Of a stretch of DNA of 34,961 nucleotides, positions 7,156 to 34,961 are shown piece after piece. A program made the position numbers and the translations under genes. Source of the stretch: Gammaproteobacteria bacterium (GTDB lineage: Bacteria; Pseudomonadota; Gammaproteobacteria; JABABF01; JAHRAO01); the NCBI GenBank assembly GCA_020027215.1, contig JAHRAO010000045.1, positions 1-34,961 of the forward strand, given 5' to 3'. Below the pieces are notes generated by a model that saw only the letters and a list, made by a program, of their open reading frames with translations, made no database searches and was not told the DNA's origin. Position 1 is the first letter of the stretch. Each line of letters begins with the position of its first letter.

Positions 7156-10100
7156 TTACAAGGGAGGTAAACAGGAAATGTGTGGGAGATCATTGGAACT
7201 ACCAAAATTCCACACACGGTTTGTGCTATTTTCCTCGCTCATATCTATCTGTCCATTGCCGTTCGCATCGCAGTAAAGAGAATATAAGTCATCGCCGCCG
7301 CTACTGGTCTCCAGCACTCCATCACCATCAAAGTCAAACCCGCTCTCCCAGCCGCTGAGCAGGGGCATAGACATTTGTGGTGATTCCCCAGTCACCTGCT
7401 GCAGTTCATCGAAAGTGAGCCCATATACCGCCTGAGTCACCGATGTTGAAGGCGTAAACATGCCACCAATTCCATCATCGGTTGTTGAGGTACTATTGCG
7501 AAAATAATTGATGCCGGAGAGAGTGGCATGGGTTACCGTTGTCCCGACATTACCGATCAGCCCTTCCGAATACCCTGTTTGGTGTTCAAAAACAAAAATA
7601 TCGCCACCGAAGTAAACTTGGGTCATGTATGCTTCAGCGGATGCTGCGTGGGCAATGAGCCCAGATATGGGGTTCGCGCTCACATAAGGTGTACTACTAA
7701 AATGTCCATTGATATCACCAGTTGCATAAGCCTGATAAATGCGTTGATCTTGAGTGCCCAATAAACCAATTAAGCCGGCAAGATTATCGTCAGGGGCGTA
7801 TGCTGGAATGTCGCCAAATAAAACGGGGTTTCTTTTTCCATGCACCGTACCCGCAGCATGCACTTGCCATACCAATCCTTTCTCGTGTACGCCAATTAAC
7901 CCACCTATATCGGATAAGCGATGGTTGCCGATTGAACGCACATCTCCTGCGGCGCGTGAGCGCAACACAATTCCGCCTCCGGTTAACTTACCGATTAACC
8001 CACCATAACCGCGTGCCAATACCACTGTCGAAGTGGATCCATTATTACCAATCACATCTCCTGTGGCAACAGATTTTTCTAGTGCGCCGCCATTTTGTTG
8101 ACCAATTAATCCCCCCACATTATGTGCCGTGCGCGATTGCGTGCCCCCAGAGATATCATTGATTCCGCTACGCACTTGCCCAATATTACGCACATTGCGC
8201 ACATATGTGTTGGCCACTGTGCCGCCGATATCTCTCCATATTTGGATAAAAGTATCGCCAGTACTATCACTCGGATAGGCATTTCCTTCCATCAAACCGA
8301 TCGCACCACCAATATTATCGCCCAATGCAGTATGATTGCCCAGTACGCTCAACTCGGTACTCACATCTTGCACGATTGCATTATCAGCCAGACGCCCTGC
8401 AATACCCCCCACATAGCCTGCTCCCAACACTTCGTAGGTCTGTAAATTATCGTGGGGGATGAAAACAATATCGTTCACTGTACTCGCGATAATTTCACCC
8501 GCTAATGCGCCCGTGTAATTTCTTCCCACAACTTGTTTGACGGAAAAAGTAACACTGGAAATAACCGATCCTGTGCTGACTCTGGCAAAAAAACCGACAT
8601 AATCAGTGGATGAACTGCGAATAGTTAAATTGCTAATGGTGTGTCCACCGCCATGAAAGTGAGCGCTGAATGGGGTTGTTTGACTACCAATGGGTCGCCA
8701 TATCTCATCTAAATGAATACTTTTTTTCAACTCGTAGCCGACACACAAATCATTCGGACAACCATGTGTGGCACCAGCAATGCTATCGTTTTGTCGGTAA
8801 CTTGCCCCTGTTAAATCATGGCGCATATAATGGATCTCGTTATCGTCAATCAAATCAATCAGTCCATTACTATCCATATCAATACTTTTGAGTACAACGG
8901 GGACGCGATAAACAATCGTATTGGCCGCATCGCTCAACCGCACAGTGATCGTTGCCGTAACAGAAGGGGTTGAAGCGATAGTCAGCGGAGCAGTGTAATG
9001 CACTTCGGTACGATCCCCATTAATATGGCTCAACGCAACAGTACCCATAGATGCTTCTACCGTCCATGTCAAAGAAGAGTTATTTTCATCCACATCGTTC
9101 GCAGTAAAAGTGAGTGCGGTGGTCGTATTAACACGCAATTCTTGGTCAACCCCTGTGCCACCGGTACTTGTGAGAAACAATATCGTGGAGGGTGAAATGA
9201 TACTTTTGAATAGCGGAGGCTGATTCCCATGACTGATAAAACGAATCATAATATCGTCATCATTATTGCGATCACGAATGACAACATGGATGCTACTCTC
9301 ACCGGCTTTTTTAATGCGGTAGGTCAAATTCGTAGTGGTTCCACTAATGGGGTTGAGTGAAAAATATTCATTCGCGGTATCAATCATTGTCGTATCTGTC
9401 GATTGTCCTCCTATTTGGCGAATAATGCGCCATCTCAGGTCATGCGAGGGTGTATCCGTATCGGTAGCCTCTATGAATATATGTCCAGTGACATTTTGTA
9501 CGATCGCGGTCGGACTCACTATTGAAGTAATAATTGGTGATCTATCAATTTCGGGAGGGTCGTCAGTATCTAAAAAAAAGTCAAAATAATTACGAGATAC
9601 AGCGGCACCAGCAACACTGACCGATATGCGCCCTGAAGTCAAACCACTCACTGGGGCGGAAAGATATTCTACGATCACACTGTCCGCTAATGGGTTGGTT
9701 TGAAAATTCAATTTTGCAGGAATCGGTGAACGATCAATTTGCCATAAAAGTAAAGCTTCTGGAAATGGGCGGTCGGCGCTCAATTGAAAAGTGCCCGATT
9801 CATTAGGTAGGTTCGTAAACATGATACTGTTCGTACTAATACGATTACTCCCTAAAAAAATCGGAATAGGTGGCGCAGCAGTGACTTTAATCTGCAATAG
9901 AATGCTATCTTGTGAAAAGCCATCGGCCACTGCGATACGCACAATATATTCGCCGGGCATACTAAAATCAGGATGATATACCGCAGTCACCGTGCTACCG
10001 ATGGTGTTTAATAATTCCATGCGCCCCGCTGAAGGATCCAGTGATATTATCCACATTAAAGTATTACCTTCACTATCCCCAGCAGTTAATACCGTTGACA

Positions 10101-10305
10101 CGCTGCGCGAGGCAACGGTCTCTAGGCGCATCATCGCTCCCTGAGTAATGGTCGGCGAGGTATTGGTCACCGATTGGGTCGGATCATCGGCTCGGCTGAG
10201 TGGGTTGGATGGGTTTGACGACGAATTATCTACACTACACGCCAACAAAACCAATAAGAATGCTCCGAGAAGCAACCGAAAACAGTGCCCTAAAAAGATC
10301 GTCAC
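7156..10305 (-). CDS. Large GLUG-motif surface lipoprotein
   Basis: This is a 1049-residue exported protein. The signal peptide ends in a lipobox LLAC with Cys23 followed by Ser, which favours outer-membrane sorting. Residues about 40-470 are β-rich, with repeated Ig/cadherin-like segments (for example DSILLQIKV, ATITVRLSDAANT). A calcium-loop-like segment DMDSNGLIDLIDDNE lies near residue 475. From about 580 to 900 there are roughly six GLUG-type repeats of the form GGLIGxxxxGxxxxxxATGDV (VGGLIGQQNGG, GYGGLIGKLTGG, DIGGLIGVHEKG and others). The C-terminus holds two more Asp/Asn-rich loops (DFDGDGVLE, CDANGNGQIDMSEE). GLUG repeats occur in bacterial surface proteins, often adhesins or proteases. 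No catalytic domain is visible here, so an adhesive or structural role is inferred. The gene starts 15 bp downstream of ilvD on the same strand and converges on mrcB. Confidence 0.85.
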   Translation of the reverse strand: MTIFLGHCFRLLLGAFLLVLLACSVDNSSSNPSNPLSRADDPTQSVTNTSPTITQGAMMRLETVASRSVSTVLTAGDSEGNTLMWIISLDPSAGRMELLNTIGSTVTAVYHPDFSMPGEYIVRIAVADGFSQDSILLQIKVTAAPPIPIFLGSNRISTNSIMFTNLPNESGTFQLSADRPFPEALLLWQIDRSPIPAKLNFQTNPLADSVIVEYLSAPVSGLTSGRISVSVAGAAVSRNYFDFFLDTDDPPEIDRSPIITSIVSPTAIVQNVTGHIFIEATDTDTPSHDLRWRIIRQIGGQSTDTTMIDTANEYFSLNPISGTTTNLTYRIKKAGESSIHVVIRDRNNDDDIMIRFISHGNQPPLFKSIISPSTILFLTSTGGTGVDQELRVNTTTALTFTANDVDENNSSLTWTVEASMGTVALSHINGDRTEVHYTAPLTIASTPSVTATITVRLSDAANTIVYRVPVVLKSIDMDSNGLIDLIDDNEIHYMRHDLTGASYRQNDSIAGATHGCPNDLCVGYELKKSIHLDEIWRPIGSQTTPFSAHFHGGGHTISNLTIRSSSTDYVGFFARVSTGSVISSVTFSVKQVVGRNYTGALAGEIIASTVNDIVFIPHDNLQTYEVLGAGYVGGIAGRLADNAIVQDVSTELSVLGNHTALGDNIGGAIGLMEGNAYPSDSTGDTFIQIWRDIGGTVANTYVRNVRNIGQVRSGINDISGGTQSRTAHNVGGLIGQQNGGALEKSVATGDVIGNNGSTSTVVLARGYGGLIGKLTGGGIVLRSRAAGDVRSIGNHRLSDIGGLIGVHEKGLVWQVHAAGTVHGKRNPVLFGDIPAYAPDDNLAGLIGLLGTQDQRIYQAYATGDINGHFSSTPYVSANPISGLIAHAASAEAYMTQVYFGGDIFVFEHQTGYSEGLIGNVGTTVTHATLSGINYFRNSTSTTDDGIGGMFTPSTSVTQAVYGLTFDELQQVTGESPQMSMPLLSGWESGFDFDGDGVLETSSGGDDLYSLYCDANGNGQIDMSEENSTNRVWNFGSSNDLPHISCLPPL

Positions 10306-28091: not shown

Positions 28092-29012
28092 CTATTGGTG
28101 CGTAATATCACGCACTACGCGAAACCCAACATAATTAGAGCGCAAACCGGGCAATGAAGGACGGCGTGCTGCTGAGCGAGCATCCGTCTGCGTGGATTTC
28201 CAGCTCCCACCCCGTACAACGCGATAGGCGCCCGATTGGGGACCGAGTGGATCAACCGTTTGAGTAGCGTCTTGGTATTGTTGATACCAATCCCTTACCC
28301 ATTCCCAAACATTACCGTGCATATCGTACAGTGCCCATGCATTAGGTATTTTTTTACCGACGACAAAAGGACCTTCCACATTGGAATTGGCATGATACCA
28401 TGCATAACGATGGAGATTAACCGGATTATCATCAAAGTAATAATGAGTGACTGATTCTGCGCGTGCACTATACTCCCATTCCGCCTCACTCGGCAAACGG
28501 TAATTTCCTTTATCATCACTGGGTTTATTTGCGTTCAACCATTGAATAAAATCCATTACATCTCGCCACGAAACATAAGTGACGGCTTGATCGGCTATTT
28601 TATTGGTCGCATTAAACGCGGGGGTCAGCAAATCATTTCTATTCATCGCACTAATAAATGAGCGAAACTGGTTGACGGTAGTCTCGTACTGCCCCATTTG
28701 AATATGGCGTGTAATACGCACTTTATGTTGTGGATATTCATTTGTATTGGCTTGTGGATCTGGGGAACTGTTGCACGGGCACAACATGGATGAAGTGCGC
28801 GGCAGTTGTAAATCGGAAGCCTTACTGGGTAAAGTGTATAAAAAGGCACCACCATTACAGCTCCCCATATGAAATTCACCCTGTTTTATATCAACAAAGC
28901 GCATTCCGATATAATTAGTGAAATCAGCATACGCAAAAGAGCACCATGCTACGACAATAAATGATAAGATTATTTTCATATTCATATTCATTGGGTTATT
29001 ATACATGCTCAT
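28092..29012 (-). CDS. Exported FGE/sulfatase-modifying-factor domain protein
   Basis: It has 306 residues with a signal peptide (MKIILSFIVVAWCSFAYA, preceded by a Met/Asn-rich 11-residue extension). The rest is one FGE-sulfatase (SUMF1-like) domain. It opens with GMRFVDIKQGEFHMGSC, continues with HIQMGQYETTVNQFRSFI, VTYVSWRDVMDFIQWLN, YRLPSEAEWEYSARAES and NVWEWVRDWYQQY, and ends with YRVVRGGSWKSTQTDARSAARR and VGFRVVRD. The domain is a C-lectin-like fold used by formylglycine generators, EgtB-like enzymes and many non-catalytic or unknown proteins. No sulfatase is adjacent, so a formylglycine role is not supported. ATG 29012 has a GGAGAGG ribosome site a few bases upstream. Met codons at 28991, 28985 and 28979 are alternatives. 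Confidence 0.88.
   Translation of the reverse strand: MSMYNNPMNMNMKIILSFIVVAWCSFAYADFTNYIGMRFVDIKQGEFHMGSCNGGAFLYTLPSKASDLQLPRTSSMLCPCNSSPDPQANTNEYPQHKVRITRHIQMGQYETTVNQFRSFISAMNRNDLLTPAFNATNKIADQAVTYVSWRDVMDFIQWLNANKPSDDKGNYRLPSEAEWEYSARAESVTHYYFDDNPVNLHRYAWYHANSNVEGPFVVGKKIPNAWALYDMHGNVWEWVRDWYQQYQDATQTVDPLGPQSGAYRVVRGGSWKSTQTDARSAARRPSLPGLRSNYVGFRVVRDITHQ
28908..28915 (+). promoter_or_regulatory. Possible -10 element for the pseudopilin-like lipoprotein gene
   Basis: GATATAAT (TATAAT 28910-28915) lies inside the 5' coding part of the opposite FGE gene, 90 bp before ATG 29005. There is no clear -35. The octamer is the same as at other putative promoters of this window. Confidence 0.25.
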
Positions 29013-29493
29013 GAACCTCTCCGATTATATTTCTTATAAAAGTCAATTCGTTTTATACACATTATTTATTGTCTGCATATGCTCCTGCAAGTCTTCTGAC
29101 GATCAAAACGCCCGCCAAGTCGCCCGCGATATTATCCATATCCAGCGCGCTAGTCTATTGTACTATAATGATAACAATACATGGCCGACTACTCTCAATA
29201 CCTTACTCAATACAGGCTACTTAAACCATAATTGGCAACCACTCAATCCCTGGGGGATTCCTTATGCTTTACAATTTGGCAAGCGCTTTTTAATTATTTC
29301 TTCTACAGTACCCGCAGAAAACCATTTTCACCATATTAAACGCTATATCAATGGCGCACAACTAAAAGAAAACAACCAATTTTGGGTGCCCGTCAATGTC
29401 CCGCAAGCACCACAAGCGCCTATAAAAGAGGCGGCAAAGAAAACCCTTGACATTAAATCTAACATCCGTCATTTAATCACCCCGCCACCATAA
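29005..29493 (+). CDS. Small lipoprotein with pseudopilin (GspG/PilE)-like head region
   Basis: The product is 162 residues from ATG 29005 (160 if ATG 29011 is used). The N-terminus has one hydrophobic segment ending in a lipobox-like ICSC (Cys28). Downstream, RDIIHIQRASLLYYNDNNTWPTTLNTLLNTGYL and NPWGIPYAL follow the pattern of the α-C-terminus and β-region of type II/IV pseudopilins (x-Y-x-x-D-N-x-x-W/Y-P-T, DPWGxPY). The class III prepilin leader and the Glu5 helix of true pilins are absent. The C-terminus is Pro/Ala-rich. It may be a lipidated accessory of the pilus-like locus that begins on the other side of the terminator, which is inference. Its start overlaps the divergent FGE start by 8 bp. 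Confidence 0.6.
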   Translation: MLMNLSDYISYKSQFVLYTLFIVCICSCKSSDDQNARQVARDIIHIQRASLLYYNDNNTWPTTLNTLLNTGYLNHNWQPLNPWGIPYALQFGKRFLIISSTVPAENHFHHIKRYINGAQLKENNQFWVPVNVPQAPQAPIKEAAKKTLDIKSNIRHLITPPP

Positions 29494-29495
29494 AA

Positions 29496-29529
29496 AAATG
29501 CCTCAATCGGGTTGTGAATTGAGGCATTT
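29496..29529. terminator. Strong bidirectional terminator
   Basis: AAATGCCTCAAT (29496-29507) and ATTGAGGCATTT (29518-29529) form a perfect 12-bp stem with a 10-nt loop. A run of A on the left gives a U tail for minus-strand RNA. It lies between the convergent lipoprotein gene and the pilus-like operon. Confidence 0.85.
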
Positions 29530-29553: not shown

Positions 29554-30126
29554 TCAGAAGTTGAGATCGTCCTCTTCATTAGAAATTTGTTGTGCTGGTG
29601 CAGTTTGTTCTTGCGGAAACTGCTGCTGTGGGAATTGTTGTTCTTGCGGAAATTGTTGCTGCTGTGGGAATTGTTGTTCTTGCGGAAATTGTTGCTGTTG
29701 TGGGAACTGCTGCTGTTGTGGGAACTGCTGCTGTTGCGGGAACTGCTGCTGTTGCGATGGGAATTGTTGCGGTGCGGAGCAACTCGCGCGCAATTGTGCG
29801 AGTTCTTGTTGTTGTGCCTGCAACTGCACATTTTTCTCTTCCAATGATTGACTCACCACTCCCGGAAAGCTTTCTACATCTGACACCAGATCGCCAGCCC
29901 TACCACTACAATCTAAACGACCAGAAGAGAGGACAGAACAGCCACCAATCACATCGCCAACCGAAGCGACCACAAAAATGCCTTTGACTTTATAGACATA
30001 ACGGCTACCAGATTTACCAACTGCAACTATTTCAGCTTCGGCAAATACACTTTGCGTACACAAAATGACACCTAATCCACAAAAAAATCCGACTGCTATT
30101 TTGATATAATTATTAATAGATTTCAT
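29554..30126 (-). CDS. Exported protein with small β domain, coiled coil and QFPQQQ repeat tail (pilus-locus protein)
   Basis: It has 190 residues. The signal peptide is MKSINNYIKIAVGFFCGLGVILCTQSVFA. A compact Gly/Val-rich domain follows (EIVAVGKSGSRYVYKVKGIF…GDVIGGCSVL…LDC) with two Cys that could pair. It is vaguely like the C-terminal HR/PilP-type domains that dock on secretins. A short coiled coil (SLEEKNVQLQAQQQELAQLR) leads into about nine QFPQQQ hexapeptides and an acidic end (NEEDDLNF). ATG 30126 is chosen over the upstream frame because AGAAGG lies 4 nt before it and the signal peptide begins there. It is the last gene of the minus-strand secretin operon. The function is unknown; a periplasmic assembly or spacer role is inferred from the neighbours. 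Confidence 0.65.
   Translation of the reverse strand: MKSINNYIKIAVGFFCGLGVILCTQSVFAEAEIVAVGKSGSRYVYKVKGIFVVASVGDVIGGCSVLSSGRLDCSGRAGDLVSDVESFPGVVSQSLEEKNVQLQAQQQELAQLRASCSAPQQFPSQQQQFPQQQQFPQQQQFPQQQQFPQEQQFPQQQQFPQEQQFPQQQFPQEQTAPAQQISNEEDDLNF
29602..29769 (-). repeat. 18-bp minisatellite encoding QFPQQQ
   Basis: About nine head-to-tail 18-bp units encode Q-F-P-Q-[QE]-Q with small variations (one unit is shortened to QFPQQ, and some have Glu in place of Gln). The unit is a multiple of three, so copy-number change alters protein length without frameshift. Confidence 0.9.
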
Positions 30127-30219
30127 CAACCCTTCTCTTTCTGTCAAACCAATGCTCCACAAATTAATTAGAAAATTCCTTTGTAGAAGCCATCACACTA
30201 TCGTTTTATAAGCGTCTCA

Positions 30220-30849
30220 TTATGAGCCGGGTGCAGTTCCCGAGCCCTCACTGTCATCGCCTGTTGTTACTTTTTTCACTTCTGCATTGTACACTAGGCG
30301 CAATACTCGCTTAGAATCATTGTCAATATCCCTCAACACCACTCTATCCGTTTCAATAGAATCAACCACATATTCATTAAACTCATCTCCTTTTTCTACC
30401 ACTTGTACTTGCCCTTGTATTTTAAGCAATGCCGCTCCAGCAGAATAGTTAATGGCAAAGACGCTATAGTTCATTGCATTTGTCAAAGCGGCTTCCACAT
30501 TATTAGTTGGAGAAAATGCATTAGAATCGGTGTTTTCTAACTGAGCAATATCTCGGCGCAATTCGGCACGCAATTTTCTTTTTTTGAGGGATACCATGTC
30601 CTCCAAAAATTTATCATCGTCACCAAACTGTTTCACCAATTCGGGGTTTAAGCGGTCACTAGTCGAGACATCACGTTTACCGCTGAAAGCATCGACGCGT
30701 TGATGTAGCCGATCAACGCTTTCTTGCATCGTCGCTATATTATGCAATAATATATCCATATCACCACCCCGTCCACCTACAACGAGGTAAGAAACCAATA
30801 TGGCAACTATTACAGCTACCAGTGAATATAATGCCATTTGTAAATTCAT
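30220..30849 (-). CDS. Inner-membrane pilus-locus protein with PilP/GspC-like end
   Basis: The 209 residues have one N-terminal membrane segment (MALYSLVAVIVAILVSYLVVG). A long helical, charged region follows (about 30-125; MQESVDRLHQRVDAF, LKKRKLRAELRRDIAQLE). The C-terminal β part is ALLKIQGQVQVVEKGDEFNEYVVDSIETDRVVLRD. The order 'G-D-x-x-x-x-Y-V-V-x-S-I-x-x-D-x-V-V-L' is like the homology region of GspC/PilP proteins that contact the secretin N-domains. That resemblance is weak and unverified. Position downstream of the secretin in one operon supports an assembly role. The tail is Gly/Ser/Asp-rich. Confidence 0.6.
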   Translation of the reverse strand: MNLQMALYSLVAVIVAILVSYLVVGGRGGDMDILLHNIATMQESVDRLHQRVDAFSGKRDVSTSDRLNPELVKQFGDDDKFLEDMVSLKKRKLRAELRRDIAQLENTDSNAFSPTNNVEAALTNAMNYSVFAINYSAGAALLKIQGQVQVVEKGDEFNEYVVDSIETDRVVLRDIDNDSKRVLRLVYNAEVKKVTTGDDSEGSGTAPGS

Positions 30850-30894
30850 TAAATTACTCTACTTTTCTTAATTTTAAAAAAAATTCGCATCGGT

Positions 30895-31425
30895 TTAATT
30901 GAGTTCTACCCCAGCAACTGATTCAATTTTTGATCCGTATAATCTCACCATTATGATCATTTTATTTTCATCCGCCTCTATTTTATTAATAGCAAGAAAT
31001 CTATTATACTCACTGGATACATGTTTCAATATATATATCTGTTGGTATATATCGCCAGTCACAGTCACAATGGCATCCTGATACAACCCGATACGATCCA
31101 TATGCCAATTCTGCCCTGCAATGGGTTGTAACATTCCTACTGTATTCTCTTCGGCACCTTCTTCGGTCTCTCCCCATTCAATTTCCACATCAGCAGCATC
31201 TAAATTTTTAACGACCGAAAAATATATTTTATTATGTTCCAGTGCAAGTAATGGTGAAATAGGCAAATCTTGCAATTCGCTATAAAGTAAGCGATCAGAA
31301 GCGTAAATGCGTTCCGATTGATCCATATTAAATCCTCTATTGATCTGATACACCGCACCCACTAATAACAAGATCGCGCCGGCAATATAAACTATGCTGA
31401 GGACTGGCTGGTATTTTGTATTCAT
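30895..31425 (-). CDS. Single-pass membrane protein of the secretin operon, unrecognised
   Basis: The 176 residues start with a membrane segment at about 8-28 (VLSIVYIAGAILLLVGAVYQI). The presumably periplasmic region contains an acidic stretch EIEWGETEEGAEENT and two β-rich parts (YFSVVKNL, DAIVTVTGDIYQQIYIL) and ends MIIMVRLYGSKIES. I do not recognise the family. ATG 31425 has GAGG 8 nt upstream. Its membrane topology and position between the secretin and the PilP/GspC-like gene suggest an inner-membrane assembly subunit. Confidence 0.6.
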   Translation of the reverse strand: MNTKYQPVLSIVYIAGAILLLVGAVYQINRGFNMDQSERIYASDRLLYSELQDLPISPLLALEHNKIYFSVVKNLDAADVEIEWGETEEGAEENTVGMLQPIAGQNWHMDRIGLYQDAIVTVTGDIYQQIYILKHVSSEYNRFLAINKIEADENKMIIMVRLYGSKIESVAGVELN

Positions 31426-31472
31426 TACTTGATCCTCAAACGGCTACTGCACTGGCTATATAATAACGCATT

Positions 31473-31871
31473 TTAATTAAACGCGACATTCATCCAACCA
31501 TCTTTCGCATATACATCTGCATAATTAATAATATCCCGCACATGCACTAATGGATCGGAGCCAGCATTACTAATCTTTAATTGCAAAATATTATCTTGAT
31601 AACGATATCCCGTAATATTTCCGTCGGGAAGACGATTGGACACTCTCAGCAAAGTTGACGCAACTAATGGGTGAATGCCATTATTTTTAATAATTTCACC
31701 CGCTTTGAGTTGCAAATGGCGATTGAGCTCCATTGTAAATTGCCGTGCTGTTTCTTGTTCGGACGTTATTTTACTAACTTGGTAATAATGAAAAATCCAG
31801 AGTAAAGCGTAGATAATCAACAACGCAATTAAGAAGCGCTTAGACAAATCATATATCGCGACCCAATTCAT
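31473..31871 (-). CDS. Small single-pass membrane protein of the secretin operon (PilM-of-type-IVb size class)
   Basis: It has 132 residues with one membrane helix at about 9-27 (KRFLIALLIIYALLWIFHY). The soluble region has a helix (TARQFTMELNRHLQLKAGEII) and a β-like end (ITGYRYQDNILQLKISN…DGWMNVAFN). Size and topology resemble the small PilM protein encoded beside the PilN secretin in R64-type pilus loci, but I see no decisive motif. ATG 31871 is chosen because AAAGG lies about 8 nt upstream, while the longer frame would need a TTG at 31892. It lies 37 bp after the secretin gene. Confidence 0.6.
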   Translation of the reverse strand: MNWVAIYDLSKRFLIALLIIYALLWIFHYYQVSKITSEQETARQFTMELNRHLQLKAGEIIKNNGIHPLVASTLLRVSNRLPDGNITGYRYQDNILQLKISNAGSDPLVHVRDIINYADVYAKDGWMNVAFN

Positions 31872-31908
31872 TATGAATACCTTTCTTCTCAATCCTTCCT
31901 ACGATTTA

Positions 31909-33714
31909 TTACCAAGCAACTTCCAACAGCAATGCAAATTCAGTAATACGGCGCTCTTTTTTGATATTCCTAAATAGAGATCCTAAAATTGGAATATCGC
32001 CGATAATTGGAACAACTGCGCGTTCATCTGATTCTCTTTCGGACATCAATCCACCTAAAATCAAGCTTTCGCCATTTTTAATGGACACAACTGTCTGTGT
32101 TTGCTTCATGCTGATATGTGGCGCTTCCACGGTATTGTTCCCATTTTGAATATTGCGCAAGGTTTGCAAAGTGGTCAACTCCGGAGAAACATATAAAATA
32201 GCTTCTTCTTCCGAAACAATATGTGGCAAGACATAAAAGCCCAATCCAGTTTGGAGCGGTTGCACAATAATAGAGTTCGTAATACTCGCCGAAGATGTTG
32301 TGGAGGTATACGCCTGCGCTACATAGGACACTGTTTCGCCGACTAACAAAGAACCGACTGCGCCATTATTCACTACTAAAGAGGGGCGGCTGACCACTCG
32401 AACATCGCCATAGCTACGCAGTGCTCTAATAAAGAGATTAAACACTTCACTCCCCGAAGTGCTGCGAGTATTTAAGGTTAAAATGTTGCTCTGAGTGCTG
32501 ACATTGGTGAAAGCATTGTCACGGTTAAGCACGCCCTCGGCCACACCGAGTGAATTCAGAGTAACACCTTGTCCAAGATTTTGACCAATCGTCATAGCAC
32601 CGGCAACATTTTGAGCGACATTACGCCAATCTACACCAAATTGTTTACCGTCATCTAAGTCAATTTCAGTAATGACGCCGCGAATACGCACCGAACGGCG
32701 CAATTTACGGTTAATGCGATCCAAAAATTCTCCGATACGGTCAACGACATCCGCACGATCACGCACCCATATTGAGCCAACTTCTGGATGAATCACCAAT
32801 TTTCCATTATCGGTCAAAAAGCCTTCCAATGTATCGGATATATTTTTCATGCTGGCGCTTTCGCCGTAAGCCATCGCCAAACTCGTTGAAGCAGATACAC
32901 CACCTTCTACATCGAATCGCGTCCCTTCGCGAGACAATCCCGCTGAAGTCGTGGTCGTTTGACTCTTGGGCGCACGCGCTTCTCGTGTAGAGCGAATTTC
33001 AAAAGCCTGTTCTAATAGAGGGAAGTTAATGTCAAACATCCTTTCTTGATCGCGATATATCACATAGGTACGATTATCACGTTTCCAAAACAGACCTATA
33101 GGCGCCAATAAACGATCTAAAGCCGATTCCAGCGGTACACGCTCAAACTGAGCATTGAGTAAATCTTCCAAATGCTCGCCTGCACCATCACGAATGATAT
33201 AGGGTATATCAATTGAACCCAGCATAGTGCTCAAGACAATATGCAACGGCTGTTTGAATGCCCTAAATGTAATCTGCTTTTGCTTCTCAACACGAATGCC
33301 ATGCGTTTTCTTAAGATACAACAGCCCTACTGGACGCAAGACCATAGTCAGTGCTTCTTCTACGGAAGCATTTTCGACATTAATTGACACTTTAGCACGG
33401 GTATCTACTCCATTACCCCATTCAATATCGCTGATAATCAACGGCAATACATCGGATAAAGGTTCATTAAAAAGAGTCAATGAAACGCCTTTCTTCAACT
33501 CTGCTGCGGAATCCACTACTGCACCAGCGCGAATTTGCCCCGCAGGAGTATCCCCCGCGTGACGCGCATCGGTCCGCACTTGTGTAAAAGCATCATCTAC
33601 TTCCGATGCCAACACGGCAGGTCTCACCACTTCGGCACATCCACTAAGAAGAATGAGTAATGGAAAGACCACACTCACAACACATTTACTCAATTTACAC
33701 AGAATATCATTCAT
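31909..33714 (-). CDS. Outer-membrane lipoprotein secretin, type IVb pilus (PilN/MshL-like)
   Basis: It forms the outer-membrane ring channel of a type IV pilus or type II-like system. The signal peptide ends in lipobox LLSGC (Cys about 26). Two N-terminal secretin/STN-like modules follow, each with an 'EALxxxLxPxGLxxxxxxxxxxV' pattern (EEALTMVLRPVGLLYLKK and ESALDRLLAPIGLFWKRD). An N-domain has IWVRDRADVVDRIGEFLDRINRKL. The C-terminal secretin domain contains VDWRNVAQN, VVSRPSLVVNNG and the signature GESLILGGL…VPIIGDIPILGSLFR. The 602-residue length and the lipidation fit the PilN/BfpB/MshL group rather than type IVa PilQ. ATG 33714 is used; ATG 33726 is equally possible. A separate extended -10 promoter lies just upstream. 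The operon's ATPase and platform protein are not in the window. Confidence 0.9.
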   Translation of the reverse strand: MNDILCKLSKCVVSVVFPLLILLSGCAEVVRPAVLASEVDDAFTQVRTDARHAGDTPAGQIRAGAVVDSAAELKKGVSLTLFNEPLSDVLPLIISDIEWGNGVDTRAKVSINVENASVEEALTMVLRPVGLLYLKKTHGIRVEKQKQITFRAFKQPLHIVLSTMLGSIDIPYIIRDGAGEHLEDLLNAQFERVPLESALDRLLAPIGLFWKRDNRTYVIYRDQERMFDINFPLLEQAFEIRSTREARAPKSQTTTTSAGLSREGTRFDVEGGVSASTSLAMAYGESASMKNISDTLEGFLTDNGKLVIHPEVGSIWVRDRADVVDRIGEFLDRINRKLRRSVRIRGVITEIDLDDGKQFGVDWRNVAQNVAGAMTIGQNLGQGVTLNSLGVAEGVLNRDNAFTNVSTQSNILTLNTRSTSGSEVFNLFIRALRSYGDVRVVSRPSLVVNNGAVGSLLVGETVSYVAQAYTSTTSSASITNSIIVQPLQTGLGFYVLPHIVSEEEAILYVSPELTTLQTLRNIQNGNNTVEAPHISMKQTQTVVSIKNGESLILGGLMSERESDERAVVPIIGDIPILGSLFRNIKKERRITEFALLLEVAW

Positions 33715-33777
33715 AATACTGCCCATTAACGTTAATAATTAAAACATCCGAGTTTTTGCCTTCGCAAATATTCGGTC

Positions 33778-33785
33778 ATTATATC
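33778..33785 (-). promoter_or_regulatory. Putative extended -10 promoter of the secretin gene
   Basis: On the minus strand TGTGATATAAT (TATAAT 33783-33778) lies 64 bp before ATG 33714, in the gap after the upstream gene. The TGn extension can compensate for the lack of a good -35. The same octamer precedes four other genes here. Confidence 0.45.
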
Positions 33786-33805
33786 ACAAAATAAAAGAAT
33801 CACTG

Positions 33806-34654
33806 TTAGAATATCCCCCCATTTCGTTCTAATAAATCTTGCTTATTATACAAGGATAACAAGCCAAATTGTACTGAAAAGTTTGTTATCGTATTCGCAA
33901 CAAAATCGCGATACGATTGTTTGCGGACACCAAAGCCCTCAACAATAATTGCGTCTTTCTCTACCCGTTTAGGCCGCATGACGAGATATATTTGGTCCAC
34001 TTCAACCAATCTATGGTAGATCGCGGCTTTACCACGCTTTTTCTTCTTCAACATATCTTTCAATTCATCTGCCAATTGGGTAAAACGACCACTCGGCGGT
34101 ATCTTAAATTCCTCTATATTGATTGCCCGCTCTTTTGATGTTGCTTCCAACCCCTTGCTCCTTGCCAATTGATGTAACCCGTTTGCCAAATTTCGTCCTT
34201 GTTCGCTTTGGCGATACACGTTTTTATAGATGCGATCAATTTCCATCGGCTCAACAAACAACGCATAATACTTGTTGCCTAAATACCCTTTAATTTTTTT
34301 GAGCAATCCTTTGAGGCGCACGCTCTTTTCAACCGACTGAATCGCATTGCTACGGTTAAGGGTTATATTGTTTTGGCGCAACCACTCTTTCTGCAATGCG
34401 GCAACCGTAAAATTATACACAATATCTTGATGAGTTATTTCTTCGGGATCGCCGTATACCTCACCAATCCATCCTTCGACTACATATTGCTTATGGATAT
34501 CATCGTGAGTATATGTATAACGATCGGCAATAGTCACCGCTGGCACCCAGTACAAATACGCTTTATACGCTGCGTATAGCAAAAGACATACAACAAAAAA
34601 AACAATGCCCCACCACCATATTTTTTTAGATTGTACGGGATGATCATTATCCAT
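33806..34654 (-). CDS. Single-pass membrane protein upstream of the secretin, unrecognised
   Basis: The 282 residues have a short cytoplasmic start (MDNDHPVQSKK) and a membrane segment at about 12-34 (WWGIVFFVVCLLLYAAYKAYL). A mostly helical, basic domain follows, with EEITHQDIVYNFTVAALQKEWLRQN, then LKKIKGYLGNKYYALFVEP and RFTQLADELKDMLKKKKRG. The C-terminal region (VDQIYLVMRPKRVEKDAIIVEGFGV) is β-like. The helical part faintly recalls SurA-N-type chaperone segments, but no parvulin signature is seen, so I do not name it. ATG 34654 has AGGAG three bases upstream. It starts 6 bp after the stop of the preceding gene, so the two are cotranscribed. Confidence 0.65.
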   Translation of the reverse strand: MDNDHPVQSKKIWWWGIVFFVVCLLLYAAYKAYLYWVPAVTIADRYTYTHDDIHKQYVVEGWIGEVYGDPEEITHQDIVYNFTVAALQKEWLRQNNITLNRSNAIQSVEKSVRLKGLLKKIKGYLGNKYYALFVEPMEIDRIYKNVYRQSEQGRNLANGLHQLARSKGLEATSKERAINIEEFKIPPSGRFTQLADELKDMLKKKKRGKAAIYHRLVEVDQIYLVMRPKRVEKDAIIVEGFGVRKQSYRDFVANTITNFSVQFGLLSLYNKQDLLERNGGIF

Positions 34655-34660
34655 AATCTC

Positions 34661-34961
34661 CTAACGCCCAGCAAATGACATTGAACGTTTTAACCATCCT
34701 TGCTCGCCATTGCAAATATAAAGCATTTGGCTCGCTGAAACAAATTGCATTGTGCCGTTATTTTTATCCGCATTACATTCCCATGAAAAAGGAGTGCTTT
34801 CACCGACCTTCACTTGCGAATGCAATTCTGACCACCATTTATCTATTTCAGCAATATAAACATCTTTTGCCGATAAGTAACCCGATGCGTCTTTATCTCC
34901 CTTACGATTCGCACTCACACTCATTAAATTCGTTAACGCTTTAGAACGTTTCACTGCAAAA
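34661..34961 (-). CDS. C-terminal end of an unrecognised pilus-locus protein (cut by window edge)
   Basis: The frame is open to the right edge, so the true start may lie outside (an internal GTG is at 34954). The visible part of about 100 residues contains KDVYIAEIDKWWSELH, then WECNADKNNGTMQF and MLYICNGEQGWLKRSMSF. The Cys…Gly…L-x-x-C-x-x-G-x-x-W pattern recalls the C-terminal ends of type IVb pilus-tip (PilV/shufflon-like) proteins, but this is a weak visual resemblance. It precedes the membrane-protein gene by 6 bp. Confidence 0.5.
   Translation of the reverse strand, partial: FAVKRSKALTNLMSVSANRKGDKDASGYLSAKDVYIAEIDKWWSELHSQVKVGESTPFSWECNADKNNGTMQFVSASQMLYICNGEQGWLKRSMSFAGR

Follow-up and report, generated by a model that had tools for sequence, protein, structure and literature searches.

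A deep-branching lipoprotein secretin and its partner genes: the probable 3' half of an operon for a divergent type IVb-like pilus

The window analysed here, an entire contig (C12) of 34,961 bp, belongs to a 1.53 Mb genome assembled into 46 contigs and 97% complete. Its minus strand carries, from position 34961 to 29554, a single operon of seven ORFs, all intact and separated by intergenic gaps of 6-91 bases. The first, gene P, is represented by the 3' part of one variant (variant A; 34661-34961), of which 99 aa are visible; the 5' end lies beyond the contig, and the C-terminus bears a Cys pair (..WECNADKNNGTMQFVSASQMLYICNGEQGW..). The next ORF encodes X282 (33806-34654; 282 aa), predicted from hydropathy to cross the membrane once, N-in, and to have a periplasmic domain. 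It is followed by a lipoprotein secretin of 605 aa (31909-33726), which profile searches and a tree place between the PilN and MshL types, and by two small single-pass proteins with the topology of alignment subunits, m139 (31473-31892; 139 aa, likely ATG at 31871) and m176 (30895-31425; 176 aa). The last two ORFs are those for p209 (30220-30849; 209 aa), a single-pass protein assigned by profile matches to the PilP/GspC family and comprising a coiled-coil region and an HR-like domain, and for q202 (29554-30162; 202 aa, likely ATG at 30126), an exported periplasmic protein with a Q/P-rich tandem-repeat tail. Hydropathy predicts one N-terminal hydrophobic segment, oriented N-in, for each of X282, m139, m176 and p209, and a signal peptide for q202. 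The first-pass annotation had described small exported or single-pass proteins of alignment-subunit topology around the secretin as well as a repeat-tail protein, and both descriptions hold: the tail of q202 is a true tandem array of a 36-bp unit in 4.3 copies (29605-29756). A stem search revealed a terminator-like hairpin of 13 pairs with a T tail, bidirectional in form, on the same strand (29496-29529). As this hairpin closes the operon, its downstream end is in view, and no motor gene is found there.

The secretin carries the lipoprotein motif LLSGC after a hydrophobic stretch and matches the Pfam domains Secretin (2.3e-32), STN (7.1e-12) and Secretin_N (8e-4). Among NCBIfam models, MshL gave the best score (186.1 bits, 6.7e-55; below the equivalog cut-off of 250.2), followed by PilN (137.8 bits, 4.1e-40; cut-off 287.65), GspD (126.8 bits, 9e-37; below the cut-off of 351.35) and PilQ (112 bits; below the curated cut-off). 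The original secretin call holds up. The best-covering plasmid matches are PilN proteins, which align with 90% of the query at approximately 22% identity, and the N-terminal half of the secretin matches PilN-type loci within the class. In a phylogeny of 29 sequences, a check that had been proposed, the secretin leans to PilN, with which it is grouped by a 98/95 split, and forms a lone, deep and long branch (2.2). Its union with MshL was weakly rejected by the AU test (p 0.045); its union with GspD/PilQ was not (p 0.124). Judged by its sequence, the secretin is a deep branch near PilN, outside every named equivalog. Scanning with the secretin recovered one distant secretin in the genome collection and nothing among viruses. 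The reading as a filamentous-phage pIV protein (phrog_1012) was rejected, given the length of 605 aa, the doubled STN domain and the PilP-family partner. SmpB occurs near the secretin locus both here and on contig C22 of another genome, G001, which we judge to be a coincidence.

No operon member other than the secretin had a significant match in Pfam, NCBIfam or PHROGs. For p209, three weak NCBIfam matches to GspC and PilP models fall in the same region, and a direct search of a library of 911 proteins matched it to the PilP of locus L130 (8.8e-6). With the PilP profile p209 scored 19.9 bits; the higher ranks were taken by PilP members and a single MshK-type protein, and of 300 shuffled controls none entered the list. 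On these similarities p209 is a PilP/GspC-family protein, and the locus thus possesses the PilP-type accessory of a type IVb pilus. The earlier PilP/GspC-like call is accordingly retained, while the claim that the partners belong to no nameable family survives for X282, m139, m176 and q202 and fails for p209. X282 occupies the position of TcpQ/PilL-type proteins in other loci; it found no match in plasmids, in 369 genomes of the class or in the PDB, and its AlphaFold2 model, built without relatives, had a pLDDT of 40 and was unusable. Profile-profile comparisons of m139, m176, q202 and X282 with PilO, GspM/MshJ, PilN-type and TcpQ/PilL-type alignments yielded nothing significant.

The upstream side of the operon is cut by the contig end. 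The final 127 bp of the window (34835-34961) are an exact repeat, identical to the final 127 bp of contig C8, and we take 127 to be the word length of the assembler (k = 127) because the overlaps of C3 with C5 and of C13 with C38 are also exactly 127 bp. The break at 34961, inside gene P, is thus due to a 127-bp assembler repeat. Contig C17 and the opposite end of C8 also have exactly 127 bp in common, and the sequences joining C8, C12 and C17 are absent from the assembly. C8 carries a P gene with a different C-terminus, its product being 65% identical overall to the P of the window; P had no significant match in plasmids or phages. After the P of C8 comes a protein of 1,553 aa whose reading frame is still open where the contig stops. 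It combines a Sec signal and a pilin-like head (NNATWPTRLDQLVSGGYLPPNF) with tail-fibre-like repeats and a Peptidase_S74 domain, and C17 contains part of a second giant S74 protein. The S74 ends of the two giants (L069:1-429 and L070:1-429) are 89% identical at the DNA level, whereas the aligned proteins are only 39% identical overall; the giants are mosaic in structure. The simplest reading of the assembly-graph overlaps, rather than of continuous sequence, would be the linear order giant, P, giant, P, X282, secretin. At its right end (L070:3420-3668), C17 folds back on itself in an inverted copy of 64 bp, which probably arose as an artefact of assembly.

Convergent to the operon, on the plus strand (28918-29493, likely start at 29011), lies a gene for an exported, lipoprotein-like protein with a type IVb pilin-like domain and no prepilin motif. 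In the library of 911, this protein matched the pilin-like head of the giant at 1.7e-5 and, more weakly, a type IVb prepilin of G001 (0.0024). The domain contains the motif NN-WP-T...GYL...NPWG, which is also found in type IVb prepilins of G001 and of a further genome, G230. A partial AlphaFold2 model (core pLDDT about 65-88, mean 52) had type IV pilins as its best Foldseek matches (probability 0.99, E 0.08), an outcome favoured by the presence of prepilins in the input alignment. No prepilin cleavage motif was seen by eye in either this protein or the giant of C8.

The first-pass annotation had noted that the gene order differs from those of the R64 pil and msh loci, the only two it compared, and had suggested an undescribed system. 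The former observation stands; the latter is too strong, since chromosomal type IVb loci of G001, the only genome of the same order, and of G230 have such an order: the genes for motor, pilins and tip proteins come first, and those for secretin and alignment proteins lie near the 3' end. On contig C88 of G001 (L059 and L134), a complete type IVb operon encodes a PilP-like protein (by eye), ATPase, platform, two prepilins, prepilin peptidase, a further prepilin, three prepilins of 665-797 aa, two lipoproteins, PilN and a terminal 689-aa protein. Its very large prepilins measure 665, 698 and 797 aa, and the C-termini of both lipoproteins are SPOR-like by eye. The G230 locus encodes ATPase, platform, prepilins, large prepilins, a 203-aa protein, PilN, a PilO-like protein and a PilP whose linker is rich in Q and P. 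As the window corresponds to the right half of this layout, its own arrangement has a precedent. The locus is not a new class of system. Like the G001 operon, it has a type IVb layout in which the secretin gene sits close to the 3' end and is preceded by genes for large pilin-like proteins (in our case via C8). In G001, however, the large proteins are true prepilins, lipoproteins replace X282, a single 689-aa protein stands in place of m139 to q202, and the motor is present.

The thin pilus of the IncI-complex plasmids R64 and TP114 (PilL-PilV) shares with the locus a PilN-type lipoprotein secretin, a PilP-family partner and cargo with variable C-terminal segments. The differences are that the secretin of the window is only ~22% identical to plasmid PilN and scores below the PilN cut-off, that two small single-pass proteins are present and no PilO-type protein of 420 aa, that the motor is not downstream, and that sfx-like sites were not found in the window, C8 or C17. 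TCP and CFA-III (TcpQ-TcpC-TcpR-TcpD-TcpS, with TcpF/CofJ) likewise have a gene before the secretin and small membrane proteins after it, and their Sec-exported cargo, taken out by the pilus tip, offers the nearest mechanism. In contrast to these systems, X282 has no TcpQ match, the giants are ~1,200-1,550 aa long with an S74 tail, and no ATPase gene follows the small membrane genes. The GspC/PilP-like partner, the secretin and the single-pass subunits also recall a type II secretion system (T2SS); this genome, however, has a separate complete set on C43 with its own GspC, GspD and GspM, and a GspD-type secretin accompanied by a gspC-gspM set was not found at the locus of the window.

From these comparisons we consider it probable that the locus represents the 3' half of a chromosomal operon for a divergent type IVb-like pilus, one that exports tip adhesins. 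The published model of the type IVb pilus makes pilQ, pilB, pilC, pilA and pilD mandatory and allows pilD to lie elsewhere (PMC6668835). Because pilB, pilC and pilA were not found in the assembly, in which the locus is cut by a contig end, membership by that model cannot be granted. That the locus belongs to a pilus is unproven, since neither motor nor pilin is present and it is at this very point that the assembly breaks off. If the pilus reading is correct, the secretin would be the outer-membrane gate, and X282, m139, m176 and p209, together with periplasmic q202, may form an alignment complex connecting the gate to the inner membrane, as suggested by their topology and the similarity of p209 to PilP. 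The upstream genes would then encode the cargo, namely the P proteins with their differing C-termini and the giant Sec-exported proteins, in which a phage-tail-like shaft and an S74 chaperone domain appear to be joined to a pilin-like head. In known systems, the soluble secreted factor TcpF binds the trimeric minor pilin TcpB, and the pilus carries it through the secretin (PMC9565799); in TP114 the N-terminus of PilV is constant, and its C-termini vary and act as adhesins (PMC9045228). By analogy with TCP and TcpF, and with the pili of I-complex plasmids and PilV, a filament or pseudopilus could pass through the gate with P and the giants as its tip adhesins. Genes for the motor, platform and major pilin would lie further upstream, on contigs missing from the assembly. 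The locus contributes a secretin that branches deeply between the PilN and MshL types, together with alignment proteins missed by current profile libraries. It also suggests that giant fibres that are Sec-exported, S74-tailed and headed by a pilin-like domain can be cargo of type IVb-like machines.

The assembly contains one secretion ATPase above the cut-off (T2SSE; GspE, C43:141636), one platform protein (T2SSF; GspF, C43:43911-44885) and four N_methyl prepilins (C43:45-46.5k, all T2SS genes), which sit in a complete but split T2SS (gspCDE and gspF-N; gene names by eye). There is one prepilin peptidase (C32:17501), which could serve as the pilD of the model, though the T2SS needs one anyway. 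A second ATPase, platform or canonical prepilin beyond the T2SS was not found in the 97%-complete assembly; as the assembly breaks at the secretin locus, this negative result argues only weakly for true absence. Directly before gspF, a trypsin-like protease with a GlyGly-CTERM-like tail (G000:C43, 42.7-43.7 kb; L044:6683-7672) is a likely T2SS substrate.

These findings raise the alternative that the secretin and alignment proteins have no motor of their own and constitute a second outlet, specialised for giant S74 adhesins and driven by GspE and GspF of the T2SS. The single set of secretion ATPase, platform and prepilin peptidase, accompanied by a complete T2SS, is consistent with this, as is the complete, motor-free downstream side of the operon. 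We nevertheless regard it as unlikely: the assembly demonstrably lacks sequence at the locus, at the C8/C12/C17 joins, and in related layouts the motor lies upstream, i.e., on the side that is cut off. The more specific version, in which such a motorless gate borrows the T2SS ATPase and platform and the pilin-like head of the giants, lacking a prepilin signal, acts as an export handle, seems quite unlikely. If the motor is truly absent, the locus would provide a test of one T2SS engine serving two outer-membrane gates. The same missing motor, platform and pilin genes, in a genome as small as 1.5 Mb, could also mark a decaying type IVb pilus locus that has lost its motor and pilin. A remnant of this kind is quite improbable, as the six complete ORFs are all open, regularly spaced and equipped with export signals, and the duplicated, mosaic cargo genes suggest use.

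A further possibility concerns P alone and is compatible with the type IVb-like pilus favoured here: P may be a DNA-inversion shufflon like pilV of R64 and TP114, with the contig break recording live switching of the C-terminus. Two contigs do share an identical 127 bp followed by abruptly divergent yet homologous C-termini. We find this very unlikely, however, since different complete genes follow each P variant, the assembly contains only two P copies, no R64 sfx core-like site occurs in C8 or C17 (the window has only a gapped chance match at 9155), and two paralogues with a homogenised 5' part account for the pattern equally well. That the locus belongs to an MSH-type pilus is barely credible even though MshL is the best NCBIfam match and gives the secretin core its highest family score (186 bits), because this score is under the 250-bit cut-off, the neighbours and their order differ, the operon ends without the mshM, mshN, mshE and mshG that come after mshL in the msh loci examined, and the AU test speaks weakly against the MshL clade; neither an MshL equivalog nor mshM, mshE and mshG were found in the locus.

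Elsewhere in the window, an exported formylglycine-generating-enzyme-like protein (28092-29012, minus strand; FGE-sulfatase, 4.1e-42) is encoded divergently from the pilin-like gene, and a 1,049-aa lipoprotein (7156-10305, minus strand) contains GLUG-like repeats by eye. The left contig end (10-4800) is occupied by a giant with Fibronectin-III-like repeats; such repeats are also present at the left end of contig C32, where they probably broke the assembly.
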